DNA from: Oligoflexia bacterium
GTDB lineage: Bacteria; Bdellovibrionota; Bacteriovoracia; Bacteriovoracales; Bacteriovoracaceae
NCBI GenBank assembly: GCA_015231955.1
Contig: JADGAN010000052.1
Location: forward strand, 1 to 33,017
Direction: 5' to 3'
DNA length: 33,017 bases
Below are positions 253 through 4,458 of this stretch, one piece after another (within the stretch, counting starts at the first letter, position 1; each line of letters opens with the position of its first letter). The translations under genes and the position numbers were made by a program. The notes below the pieces were generated by a model. The model did no database searches and was not told where the DNA came from. It saw only the letters and a program-made list of their open reading frames with translations.

Positions 253-462
253 TTATATCTGTCCTCTCAGTGGATCAACCAAATAATTAGTGGCTTGAAA
301 TTCTACAATTCTATAGATCATTGTTGGTGTCACTTTGCTTTTGGGTCTTAATTGCGAGTGCAATGGAATATTATAAACCCCAATTATCAGATCGTTTTTT
401 TGGGAGATTTCAAAAGTAATAGATGACGATGGAAACGCTTTGTGGCCAGAGAGGGTTATCAT
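253..462 (-). CDS. Small hypothetical protein coupled to receiver remnant
   Basis: A 69-residue ORF of no family I recognise. Its ATG (462-460) overlaps the TAA stop (464-462) of the preceding minus-strand ORF by one base, as TAATG, an arrangement typical of translational coupling. A weak purine-rich GGAAGA lies a few bases upstream. The product is mixed hydrophobic/polar with no signal peptide, membrane segment or cysteine motif. It may be a real small protein co-expressed with the receiver, or a chance ORF behind a decayed gene. Only the stop-start overlap supports it. Confidence 0.35.
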   Translation of the reverse strand: MITLSGHKAFPSSSITFEISQKNDLIIGVYNIPLHSQLRPKSKVTPTMIYRIVEFQATNYLVDPLRGQI

Positions 463-746
463 TAATCATCTTCCGATTCCCAAGGACTTTCCTTGCCCTG
501 ACACTTCAACCACGTTAAATGAGAAAACATTTGAGGATCGCGGCCGGTGGCCAAGAAAATTTTTTTAAATCCCTTTTCATGCAAGGAGGTTGCGATCTCC
601 TCACCTTTAGGCCATTCATCGCCTAACTCTCTATCTATGTAAATTTCGCTGGCCTCTTTCGATACTTGTGATTCATATTGCTCAAACTCTTTGGGAGTTG
701 CTAATGTCAGTAATTTTGCTCCTACTTTTTTGCCGATCGCTCCCAT
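462..746 (-). pseudogene. 5'-truncated response-regulator receiver domain
   Basis: This 94-residue ORF looks like the C-terminal two thirds of a receiver domain. An acidic phospho-acceptor strand is seen as IYIDRELG (Asp38), a helix follows, then the strand IFLATG (about 63-68, with the conserved Thr/Ser position), and finally GKESPW with the conserved Lys at 85. The first beta-strand and the acidic metal-binding pair that normally open a receiver are missing. The apparent start at 746 sits directly against GGAGG with no spacer and only five bases from the palindromic repeat starting at 752, so the 5' part of the gene was probably lost when that element arrived. The parent could have been a stand-alone regulator or the receiver of a hybrid kinase. 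Family assignment is by motif pattern only. Confidence 0.5.
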
Positions 747-751
747 CCTCC

Positions 752-820
752 GGAATTTCTGCCAGCTTCCTTTTTAATTGTCGGTGCGTTTACTGCGGTA
801 TGGATCAAAAAGGAAGCTGG
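752..820. repeat. Palindromic repeat element, copy 1 (left of sulfur cassette)
   Basis: A 69-bp element repeated at 4387-4455 in the same orientation. The core at 761-820 matches 4396-4455 with one difference (A800 versus G4435). It has 14-bp perfect inverted arms, CCAGCTTCCTTTTT (762-775) and AAAAAGGAAGCTGG (807-820), around a 31-base centre that is also conserved. It does not end in a T-run outside the stem, so it is not a standard terminator. The conserved centre argues for a mobile palindromic element (REP/MITE-like) rather than convergent hairpins. Confidence 0.85.
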
Positions 821-1130
821 TACCGACTCCGACTTCCCGACTTCTGGCCAATAGATAGGTCTGACCTAACTATCATAAAAAATTCGTAAGCTTAAACGGG
901 ATAAAAGTTAATTAGTTTAAGCAATTCCGCAGTGAATAGTTCACGATGATTGGAGAATTTTTTTTATATTAACGAAAGTGTGCTGTAAAATTATGCGATT
1001 TTGTCCATGGATAAAAAAAACAAGACAATTATAATTTTTTGTACAATAACGATATCTAACGTAAGTCTTTTTACGTATAAAATCTGCGTAAATTCATATA
1101 GAGATAAGTATAAATCATGGGAGGAGAATT
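821..1130. other. AT-rich leader region upstream of sulfur genes
   Basis: There is no gene in this stretch of about 310 bases. It becomes strongly AT-rich after 890 and holds several TATAAT-like words (for example near 1030 and 1076-1115), so the sulfur operon promoter probably lies here. I could not choose one -35/-10 pair with confidence. A short dyad, GTAA...TTAC, is present near 1061-1075. I saw no recognisable CstR- or BigR-type operator. Confidence 0.35.
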
Positions 1131-2564
1131 ATGATATTTGAAAGAATTAAAACTCTTGGAATGGCCCATAATGCTTACTTGCTTGCCTCAAAAGGGAAAG
1201 GCATTTTGATTGACCCGCGCAGAGATGTTGAAGAATATGTTCAATTGGCGCGATCAAAGGGTGTAAAAATAGAGTATATTCTCAATACTCATCGCCAAGA
1301 AGATTTTGTTTTAGGATCTAATCAATTAAAAAAACTTACTGACGCTAAGCTTGTAGGAGGAGATCATAAGCTCTTCGAGCATTGTGATATTTATTTGAAA
1401 AATAATGAAGAATTCGAAATTGGTGAAATCAAAATAAAGGCACTTCATACTCCAGGACATACACCAGAAAGTATGACATATGCTGTTTATATAAAAGATG
1501 CTAAAGATTGTTGGGGTGTTTTTACTGGTGATGCTTTATTTATAGGAGAAGCTGGAAGAACAGATTTGCCAGATAAGAACAAAACAGCAGAAAATGCAGA
1601 ATTACTTTACGAATCAATCCATAAAAAGATTTTACCATTAGGACCACAAACTCTTTTATATCCTGCCCATGGCTCAGGTTCAGTTTGTGGAGGAAATATT
1701 GCGGAAAATGATCATTCTACGCTTGGTCTTGAGTTTGCCTATAACCCTGCTTTTACATTATCAAAAGAAAAGTTTGTCGAACAAAAGGTTCATGAACGAT
1801 TACCTCATCCACCATATTTCTCTTTAATGGAAGAAGTAAATCTAAAAGGCGGCATTCCTCTGGAAAGTAGTATTGACAGTATCAAGATTTTAACTCCAGA
1901 AGAATTCTCAGAGAAATCCAATGAAGGAATTATCATTGATACGAGACTTCCAGAAGCTTTTGCCGGTGCTCATATCCCTAAATCTTTTAGTATTTGGTTA
2001 GATGGTTTATCTGTATTTGGTGGGTGGGTCGCTAAGAAAGATACACCTATCTATCTTGTATTGGAAAATAAAACTGATTTAGATATGGCCTATAAGCACC
2101 TTACTAGAATTGGTATGGATAATATAAAAGGTGTATTAACAGAAAATTTTGAAAAATGGAGGAATGCTGGACTCCCCATTGAAAGCTCAGGAATAATATC
2201 GGCAAAAAAACTGAATGAACAATTAGATCAGTTTCAAGTTGTTGATGTAAGAGAAGTTAATGAGTATGAAGATGAGGGACACATACCAGGATCATTGAAC
2301 TGCTATGTAGGGAACTTAGTTGAATTTATAAAAAGTAATAAAATAAAAAAACCTATAGTCGTCACTTGTAGTGTCGGTCATAGGGCCAGTTTAGGAGTCA
2401 GCATTCTTCTTCGAGAAGGCCAAAATAATGTTTCAAATTTTCTTGGTGGAATGACAGCTTGGAAAAAACTGGGAAATCCTACTAAAAAAGGTGATTCTGA
2501 AAAATCATTTTATTATGTTATGGAACATGAATCATTCCAAAATATAGGTCTGCAAATGCAATAA
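1131..2564 (+). CDS. Persulfide dioxygenase-rhodanese (MBL fold plus two rhodanese domains)
   Basis: Predicted to oxidise glutathione or low-molecular-weight persulfide to sulfite, with linked sulfur transfer, in the cytoplasm. The metallo-beta-lactamase domain (about 1-240) retains the three residues that bind mononuclear iron in ETHE1-type enzymes: His54 in NTHRQED, His110 in HTPGHTPES and Asp134 in FTGDALFIG, followed by GRTDL and YPAH. The usual HxHxDH motif is degraded to HRQEDF, which rules out a standard two-metal glyoxalase II. The first rhodanese domain (about 252-350) has no active-site cysteine. The second (about 355-450) has CSVGHR with Cys413. At 477 residues it is slightly longer than CstB-type proteins. 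A GGGAGGAG ribosome site stands just before the ATG. It is the first gene of a sulfur cassette with YeeE/YedE genes. Confidence 0.88.
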   Translation: MIFERIKTLGMAHNAYLLASKGKGILIDPRRDVEEYVQLARSKGVKIEYILNTHRQEDFVLGSNQLKKLTDAKLVGGDHKLFEHCDIYLKNNEEFEIGEIKIKALHTPGHTPESMTYAVYIKDAKDCWGVFTGDALFIGEAGRTDLPDKNKTAENAELLYESIHKKILPLGPQTLLYPAHGSGSVCGGNIAENDHSTLGLEFAYNPAFTLSKEKFVEQKVHERLPHPPYFSLMEEVNLKGGIPLESSIDSIKILTPEEFSEKSNEGIIIDTRLPEAFAGAHIPKSFSIWLDGLSVFGGWVAKKDTPIYLVLENKTDLDMAYKHLTRIGMDNIKGVLTENFEKWRNAGLPIESSGIISAKKLNEQLDQFQVVDVREVNEYEDEGHIPGSLNCYVGNLVEFIKSNKIKKPIVVTCSVGHRASLGVSILLREGQNNVSNFLGGMTAWKKLGNPTKKGDSEKSFYYVMEHESFQNIGLQMQ

Positions 2565-2582
2565 AAGATTGCACTTGGCAGC

Positions 2583-3182
2583 ATGGGTAAAATAGAGATG
2601 AAAACAATGAAAAAACAAATTGCGCTCCAAATTTTCATTTTAGTTACTCTGACATCAAATGTTTCTGCTCAAATAAACAATCAAATTGGAGGAAGTTGGT
2701 CACCCTATCTCACTGGTTTTTTTATTGGTACTTTACTTTTATTAACACTCTACTTTTCCAATAAACCAATTGGGGTCTCATCATTTTATGCTACCCTTGC
2801 AGGAATGATAGGAAAAAGGGTATCACCAAGTCATATCCTTAAATTAGATTATTATAAGAATAATCCCCCTGAAATTAATTGGGAGTTTGTTTTTGTCATT
2901 TCAACTGTCGTAGGTTCATTTATAGCTGCTTACTTTGGAGAAGAATTCAACTTGAGTTGGGTTCCCCAGCTTTGGTCCAATACTTTTGGGACCGATAGTA
3001 TCACTCGCTATGGAATTATCGCTTTTATAGGTGGAATCTTTATGTCTTTTGGTGCCCGGTTGGCCGATGGTTGTACAAGTGGACATGGAATAAGTGGAAC
3101 CTCACAACTCAATGTCGCCTCATGGATTTCAGTCATTTGTTTTTTTATTAGCGGTATGATTGCAATTCGATTTATATATTAA
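2583..3182 (+). CDS. YeeE/YedE (DUF395) sulfur transporter, first half
   Basis: An inner-membrane protein of the YeeE/YedE family, which imports thiosulfate or related sulfur compounds. It has a hydrophobic N-terminus (about 12-30), a second membrane segment at 42-58, further segments around 102-118 and 142-158, and the family motif GARLADGCTSGHGISG, with Cys164 and His168, just before the last helix. The family's full-length transporters are about 350 residues; here the two halves are separate genes and this is the N-terminal-type half. The listed ATG (2583) has little Shine-Dalgarno support; ATG 2598 or 2607 are alternative starts. It lies 18 bases after the dioxygenase gene and 15 bases before the second half, so one operon is likely. 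Confidence 0.85.
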   Translation: MGKIEMKTMKKQIALQIFILVTLTSNVSAQINNQIGGSWSPYLTGFFIGTLLLLTLYFSNKPIGVSSFYATLAGMIGKRVSPSHILKLDYYKNNPPEINWEFVFVISTVVGSFIAAYFGEEFNLSWVPQLWSNTFGTDSITRYGIIAFIGGIFMSFGARLADGCTSGHGISGTSQLNVASWISVICFFISGMIAIRFIY

Positions 3183-3197
3183 CGAAGGGAAACTGTA

Positions 3198-3737
3198 ATG
3201 ATTAATCAAAAAGAATCAAAAAGTTCGAAATTGATGAAAGCTTCTATCTTTGGTTTCATTTTCGGTTTCCTTTTACAAAAAGGAGGAGTGGCAAAATATG
3301 AAGTCATTGTAGGTCAGCTTTTACTTCAAGATTTCACTGTGGCCAAGATTATAATGTCTGCTATTCTCGTTGGAATGATTGGAATATATTTTTTGCAAAG
3401 ATTTCATCTAATAGAACTGCAGTTAAAACCTACTCATATTGCTGCAAATATTATAGGAGGCCTTGTTTTTGGTATAGGATTTGCGTTTTCTGGATACTGT
3501 CCAGGAACAGGAGCAGCAGCATTAGGACAAGGGAATTTAAATGCTATTTTTTATATACTTGGAATGCTGGTCGGTTCAATTATATTTGCTGAACTTTCTA
3601 AAAAACTTAATAATTCTGTAAATAAATGGGGTGATAAGGGAATTCTTTCTTTGAATGAATTTTTTAAAATTAGAAAAGGCACTATGATACTCGTGATGAT
3701 TGTATTACTTACCAGCATATTAGGCCTCTTGAATTAA
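3198..3737 (+). CDS. YeeE/YedE (DUF395) sulfur transporter, second half
   Basis: A membrane protein of 179 residues carrying the companion family motif FAFSGYCPGTGAAALGQGN, with Cys101 in a helix-breaking loop. Membrane segments are visible near 15-32, 50-66, 80-100, 113-130 and 160-178. It should assemble with the preceding 199-residue protein, each supplying one repeat with a conserved cysteine, to form one sulfur-compound channel, as in the split PmpA/PmpB-type pairs. A GAAGGG site precedes the ATG at good spacing. The bias to A/T at third positions matches the other genes of the cassette and differs from the more GC-rich genes further right. Confidence 0.85.
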   Translation: MINQKESKSSKLMKASIFGFIFGFLLQKGGVAKYEVIVGQLLLQDFTVAKIIMSAILVGMIGIYFLQRFHLIELQLKPTHIAANIIGGLVFGIGFAFSGYCPGTGAAALGQGNLNAIFYILGMLVGSIIFAELSKKLNNSVNKWGDKGILSLNEFFKIRKGTMILVMIVLLTSILGLLN

Positions 3738-3859
3738 TATAATGTTAATCCTACCATATTTGATAAATTACTGTAGAGGTCTCACTTTTCTATTCCTACT
3801 AAGGGGCAGTAAATGAAACAGGCAGGATAATAAATTTATAGATAGATATAGGAAAAAAT

Positions 3860-4192
3860 GTGAGCACGAATAAAAAACCCTATTCAAAAATTTCGAAGGA
3901 TCAATTGATTTTGGTAGATTGGTTAGCAGTAGACAGGACCATTTTAGCTAACAAAAGAACATTACTTTCTTATATCCGAACAGCAATGGCTTTTTTTATT
4001 TCCGGTGTTACAGCTATACGTTTTATCGAAACGTCATGGATAATAGTTGTTGGTTGTATCTTCGTCATCATTTCAATAATTATTTTGTTTTTTGGAATTT
4101 ACGATTTTTATAAGTATCAAAAAAATGTTCAAGAATTATTAAAAGGTGAAAATATTTTGCCAGAACCAATGCGAGGTGAGAAAGAGCTTTAG
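3860..4192 (+). CDS. DUF202 (YidH-like) small membrane protein
   Basis: The pattern LAVDRTILANKRTLLSYIRT followed by two hydrophobic segments (about 40-56 and 62-88) is typical of DUF202 proteins, whose function is unknown. The reading frame opens with GTG at 3860; a GGAAAAAA stretch just upstream is a weak ribosome site. The gene starts 122 bases after the transporter pair, so it may have its own promoter or be the distal gene of the same operon. DUF202 proteins are known near transporters and redox genes; a role in the sulfur module is inferred from position only. Confidence 0.75.
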   Translation: MSTNKKPYSKISKDQLILVDWLAVDRTILANKRTLLSYIRTAMAFFISGVTAIRFIETSWIIVVGCIFVIISIIILFFGIYDFYKYQKNVQELLKGENILPEPMRGEKEL

Positions 4193-4386
4193 GCCCACAT
4201 TCCGGAGCCATTTTCAAGGCCTCGCAGGACAGAAGACATCCTCTAACAAGGGGCCGACCTACTGCTGCTTTTAAATTTCAATTTTTTCCTCTGATTATTT
4301 TTCCTGCTGTCCTGGCCTCTTTTAGGATGTTTAAACCGCATTCCTTGCCATGCAGATTGATGTCGATAATCAGAATATTGGGCCAG
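4193..4386. other. Non-coding DNA with scrambled inverted matches
   Basis: There is no gene here. CAGGACAG (4225-4232) is matched in reverse complement at 4307-4314, and ACATCCT (4236-4242) at 4324-4330. Because the two pairs cross instead of nesting, they do not make one simple hairpin. This may be decayed mobile-element sequence next to repeat copy 2. Confidence 0.3.
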
Positions 4387-4458
4387 GGAATTCGTGCCAG
4401 CTTCCTTTTTAATTGTCGGTGCGTTTACTGCGGTGTGGATCAAAAAGGAAGCTGGCAC
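4387..4458. repeat. Palindromic repeat element, copy 2 (right of sulfur cassette)
   Basis: Direct second copy of the element at 752-820. The inverted arms are longer and perfect here: 17 bp at 4394-4410 (GTGCCAGCTTCCTTTTT) and 4442-4458, around a 31-base centre (4411-4441). GGAATT (4387-4392) is shared with the other copy, but the sequence outside is unrelated. A further CTGGCAC occurs at about 4490, which could be a remnant of a third arm. With copy 1 it brackets the whole sulfur gene set. Confidence 0.85.

Follow-up and report, generated by a model that had tools for sequence, protein, structure and literature searches.

A set of sulfur genes near the left end of a contig lies between two direct copies of the same palindromic element, and this raises the question of whether the element moved or captured the genes as one unit, or whether hairpins and genes reached the region separately. 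The window analysed here, 33,017 nucleotides, is the entire contig G000:C62 of a 5.6-Mb genome and is read from its base 1. The features concerned are the following:

462-746, minus strand: C-terminal receiver from a hybrid histidine kinase gene that is truncated at the 5' tail of the left hairpin
752-823, plus strand: left hairpin copy, subfamily A, with 5' tail GGAATT and stem GCCAGCTTCCTTTTT.../...AAAAAGGAAGCTGGT
824-847, plus strand: imperfect short tandem duplication (CGACTC CGACTTC CCGACTTC) at the 3' foot of the left hairpin
1131-2564, plus strand: MBL-fold hydrolase and rhodanese fusion
2583-3182, plus strand: Sulf_transp (YeeE/YedE, TsuA-like) half
3198-3737, plus strand: Sulf_transp (YeeE/YedE, TsuA-like), other half
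3860-4192, plus strand: DUF202 membrane protein
4311-4376, minus strand: remnant of a receiver-domain gene (ILIIDINLHGKECGLNILKEAR), matching a response regulator of contig C43 at 68% across 22 aa
4387-4458, plus strand: right hairpin copy, subfamily A

The two hairpins and their junctions

The hairpins are in direct orientation with a spacing of 3635 bp and are 94% identical across 72 nt. They differ at four positions, of which one (A800/G4435) falls within the 60-bp core at 760-819 and 4395-4454, in agreement with the earlier note, which had described two direct copies of one palindrome with a single core difference. Each copy is the closest relative of the other. Folding of the right copy compared with shuffled sequences gave z = -6.0 on the plus strand and -6.9 on the minus strand, with 0 of 200 shuffles as good. 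The sulfur genes that the note had placed between the copies are real (MBL-rhodanese, split YeeE/YedE and DUF202), and its impression that they are more AT-rich is supported by a GC content of 34.4% between the two hairpins, compared to 42.2% outside and about 41% for the genome. In the sampled part of the genome, 2.4% of 3.5-kb windows were as low in GC as this segment.

The left copy does adjoin a truncated gene, as had been proposed. The 94-aa ORF at 746-462 on the minus strand encodes the receiver of a histidine kinase of the hybrid type, and its identity to two other kinase ORFs of this genome, 649 and 893 codons long, is 45-48%. It matches the last receiver of these kinases, on contigs C37 and C36, whose ORFs extend 557 and 803 residues further upstream; in the window the homology ends at the 5' tail of the left hairpin. 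The missing N-terminal part was not found in the first 6 kb of the window, including the portion of it to the right of the right hairpin. On the other side, the receiver remnant at 4376-4311 on the minus strand, which the earlier note had missed, sits between the operon and the right hairpin. The right copy therefore does not mark the end of the operon. The order and strand of the two receiver fragments fit a model in which they derive from one kinase interrupted by the operon; the right fragment, however, matches the first receiver of the hybrid kinase at an E value of 0.39 only, and the response regulator on C43 matches better. The broken gene at the left copy could equally reflect a rearrangement junction or a simple insertion. 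Finally, the outer flanks of the hairpins, CATCCTCC and TGCCCCTG, share nothing, so that the target-site duplication that had been suggested as a check outside the outer ends was not found.

A dispersed and locally clustered hairpin family

A blastn search with the subfamily A copy revealed two further full copies on contig C23, giving four full A copies in the genome, in addition to several half copies. Two covariance models were then available, one built from the four copies and a wider one (R2) built from two subfamilies. Model R2 found 33 hairpin sites in the genome, plus half copies, and matches to sister subfamilies in 8 of 57 other genomes. The search for the repeat proposed in the earlier note thus confirmed a family, the roughly 33 sites of which are nearly all intergenic and scattered beside unrelated genes; this is the distribution that the note itself had named as speaking against a captured cassette. 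Members are 50-75 bp long with an outer arm GGTGCC[A/G]GNNNNCTTTTG..., and several arm subfamilies occur per phylum. All subfamilies have an asymmetric core and the arm plan GGTGCC[A/G]G-NNNN-CTTTTG, of which some variants occur, and they differ in the variable arm. When the A copy alone was used for blastn against 95 relatives, nothing convincing was obtained, the sole match (in genome G070) lying inside a gene. The subfamilies are therefore lineage-specific and the architecture is shared. The exact A-arm and B-arm patterns had no match in viral contigs and the exact A-arm pattern had none in genome contigs, and plasmids gave only short matches at chance level. Mini forms with the sequence GTGCCAGCTTCGAAGCTGGC(A/C)C, which lack the entire centre of subfamily A, were seen at L064:1301 (C22:37800) and L259:5359 (C22:32359).

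With respect to genes, 14 of the 37 copies listed for this genome have an ORF stop codon no more than 15 bp away, and 2 of the 37 have a start codon at such a distance. The strand of the hairpin is independent of that of the adjacent gene, which makes a one-way terminator unlikely. The foldable strand agreed with the GC skew in 25 of 33 copies (p 0.005), an agreement that can come from a C-to-T strand bias after insertion; with the strand defined by subfamily, agreement was only 16 to 12. Replication-strand bias was dropped as proof for these two reasons.

The sites are clustered, with eight pairs within 5 kb where 0.93 would be expected (P 5e-5; 33 sites, own genome). Six neighbouring sister pairs (on C62, twice on C31, and on C25, C86 and C34) had a mean identity of 0.90, compared to 0.69 over all pairs, and in each of the six both copies face the same way; on C23, a weak member and an A copy form another close pair, which is not co-oriented. 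Such near-identity among local copies suggests recent copying. Genes found between the other close pairs include those for HEPN, GNAT, Fic, a nucleotidyltransferase and a ChaN-like protein. Since close pairs are over-represented and mostly near-identical and co-oriented, bracketing recurs around genes that have nothing to do with sulfur, and the pair at the sulfur operon is one case of this general pattern. Its hairpins being two of about 33 scattered copies, the bracketing alone is not enough to show that the sulfur genes moved together.

Some placements were recorded as separate observations. Several copies lie less than 800 bp from contig ends (G000 C28:234, C93:214, C62:752, C23:98965 and C65:25765), as if the assembly breaks nearby. 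At L165 (G011:C63:4500-17500), a hairpin comes directly after the stop codon of each of two paralogous genes in tandem, both about 1,400 codons long, and a third hairpin follows the gene preceding them. Genes for AAA_14/ATPase_2-type ATPases stand beside hairpins at L148, L152, L159, L164, L166 and L172, the one at L172 being bracketed by oppositely oriented hairpins. In the own genome, 3 of 24 strong AAA_14 matches were within 1 kb of a hairpin with about 0.3 expected, a weak and post hoc excess in a count of coordinates.

Tandem duplications at the hairpin foot

Exact tandem duplications with a unit of 5-12 bp touch the hairpin foot in 20 of 108 flanks (18.5%; 54 copies), compared to 3.3% in intergenic controls. 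The excess drops to the background level by 15 bp from the hairpin, and other inverted repeats with 10-bp arms showed a tandem duplication in 8.8%. Examples are TAATTTGG, present twice before the copy on C35, and CTACTCAC, present three times after the copy at C92:70277; copies with foot duplications are also recorded at L235:10171, L249:9777, L250:15840 and L176:2455. The units differ between the two sides of one hairpin, and we therefore do not regard them as target-site duplications. Flank-to-flank matches were slightly longer than in shuffles (3.24 nt versus 2.58 nt, P 0.0015), and inspection revealed separate tandem duplications at each foot, none of them shared. Foot-anchored duplication is a new signature, which slippage at a hairpin that stalls replication would produce.

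Origin of the hairpins and of the sulfur operon

Relatives of the MBL-rhodanese protein at E<=1e-60 were present in 9 of 369 genomes of the phylum, the own genome included. The best of them (62-66%) occur in four genomes of one other genus, g24, in which the MBL-rhodanese gene and the transporter pair are divergently oriented, unlike in the operon of the window. When the MBL-rhodanese protein was compared with a separate collection of genome contigs, no relative turned up. A search with the R1 model found no hairpin at the orthologous operons of g24. This patchy distribution indicates that the operon was probably acquired, and its hairpin-free orthologues that it does not travel with the hairpin elsewhere; acquisition was probably separate from that of the hairpins. 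The gene of the right flank has homologues in the family at only 28-38%, and a syntenic right flank was absent from the relatives. The presence of the operon at the same locus in all relatives without the repeats, which the earlier note would have taken as evidence against its proposal, was not observed.

That proposal, in which the element moved or captured the cassette, corresponds to a reading in which the two direct hairpins served as recombination or transposition sites and the segment including the operon was inserted as one unit, or to an integron-like variant with hairpins bounding exchangeable genes. Part of it stands, as the repeat is of mobile-element type, the operon is AT-rich and patchy (9/369 genomes) and a gene is broken where it meets the left copy on its outer side; the direct orientation of the C62 copies, their mutual similarity, the low GC between them and the accessory genes enclosed by other close co-oriented pairs also agree with it. 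Insertion as a unit is nonetheless unlikely, given the many scattered sites with most copies single and beside ordinary genes, the recurrence of pairs, the operon of relatives without hairpins, the receiver remnant that separates the operon from the right copy, and the kinase N-terminus that was not found beyond that copy. Nor does the hairpin-operon-hairpin segment have the duplication at its outer ends that defines a composite transposon. Like the sites of integron attC arrays, the hairpins are imperfect palindromes that share one orientation and lie between accessory genes, but the RYYYAAC / GTTRRRY core sites are absent from them, their ends read GTGCC...GGCAC, and most copies are singletons beside ordinary genes. 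We consider it rather unlikely that they are the boundary sites of an integron- or REP-like system, in which recombination between co-oriented hairpins moves or deletes the exchangeable accessory genes lying between them (sulfur operon, Fic, HEPN, GNAT and AAA_14 ATPases).

A REP element of the canonical kind, mobilised by a RAYT (Y1 HUH transposase), would likewise be extragenic, palindromic, asymmetric and biased to gene 3' ends, and the genome has four Y1 transposase genes (PF01797). The GTAG/GTGG tag of such elements is, however, absent: none was found 0-2 nt from the stem foot in 52 listed copies, the feet reading AATTTG/GTGCC, GGGGAAAG/TGCC and so on. No mobilising enzyme was found either, and none of 26 Y1 loci in ten genomes had a confident hairpin (E<0.05) within about 1.5 kb, and two of the most hairpin-rich genomes, G070 and G011, are without PF01797. 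A core-like motif, GCGTTTATTGCG, adjoins two tandem Y1 genes on C73, but folds no better than shuffles (60/200 as good). At this locus (L030/L031, G000:C73:11710-16456) the Y1 genes are tandemly duplicated with a repeated upstream block, and the core resembles that of the hairpin. With neither tag nor transposase linkage, the canonical REP/RAYT system is refuted in part, and we regard it as improbable. GTAG/GTGG REPs and REPINs with their RAYT (TnpA-REP) do resemble the hairpins as short, asymmetric extragenic palindromes with several families per genome, located near gene 3' ends and sometimes clustered; the hairpins differ by their length of 50-75 bp, the missing GT[AG]G tag, only a few tens of copies, pairs that are co-oriented rather than inverted, and the lack of any copy beside a Y1 gene (PMC3733652, PMC6006769). 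The extragenic and gene-end position expected of any REP is seen here (14/37 within 15 bp of a stop). CGTC-tagged REPs are extragenic palindromes without a linked transposase, and repeats of the TIR families may be self-complementary and reach moderate abundance (PMC3733652). The hairpins are alike in being extragenic palindromes, but carry no CGTC tag at their ends and have their own GGTGCC[A/G]G...CTTTTG arm plan and foot tandem duplications. With MITEs they share a non-autonomous nature, intergenic position and terminal inverted repeats; they are, however, nearly all stem and without a consistent target-site duplication, and no parent insertion sequence was found in a genome-wide transposase search that covered Y1.

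Functional RNA hairpins kept by selection, such as bidirectional terminators or stabilisers of mRNA 3' ends, would explain large stable structures placed just past stop codons, and T-runs follow some subfamily B copies. Against such a role, the hairpin strand does not follow the adjacent gene, the terminator scan gave only a weak 5-pair stem on the minus strand of the right copy with a regional count no higher than in shuffles, no Rfam match was present at the two hairpins, and near-identical local copies suggest recent copying. We give this explanation little credit.

We therefore favour as likely a non-coding, REP/MITE-like family of extragenic hairpins that copies locally, with the operon as a separately acquired AT-rich module whose ends are not the hairpins. 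Accessory-looking genes between close pairs (HEPN, GNAT, Fic, nucleotidyltransferase and the sulfur operon) argue against self-copying, which in its pure form does not predict them. Copying of the hairpins is most likely, as judged from comparison of the copies rather than from the observed movement of any of them. In such a family, copies would spread within the genome with a preference for nearby sites and the same orientation, and would settle between genes, often just past stop codons. Spread would most likely occur as single-stranded hairpin DNA at replication forks, on which an enzyme may act in trans, and repeated stalling at the hairpin foot may give rise to the short tandem duplications alongside. 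The sulfur operon would have been acquired separately, and two sister copies would presumably have landed in its region.

Where a repeat family clusters of its own accord, a pair of direct repeats flanking an operon is thus weak evidence of a mobile unit. The known REP and TIR repeats are joined here by a hairpin family that spans genera of a single phylum and is set apart from them by the absence of known tags and of a linked transposase, by clear local co-oriented copying and by foot-anchored duplications. If the latter stem from stalled replication, they would allow hairpin extrusion to be read from the sequences of natural genomes.
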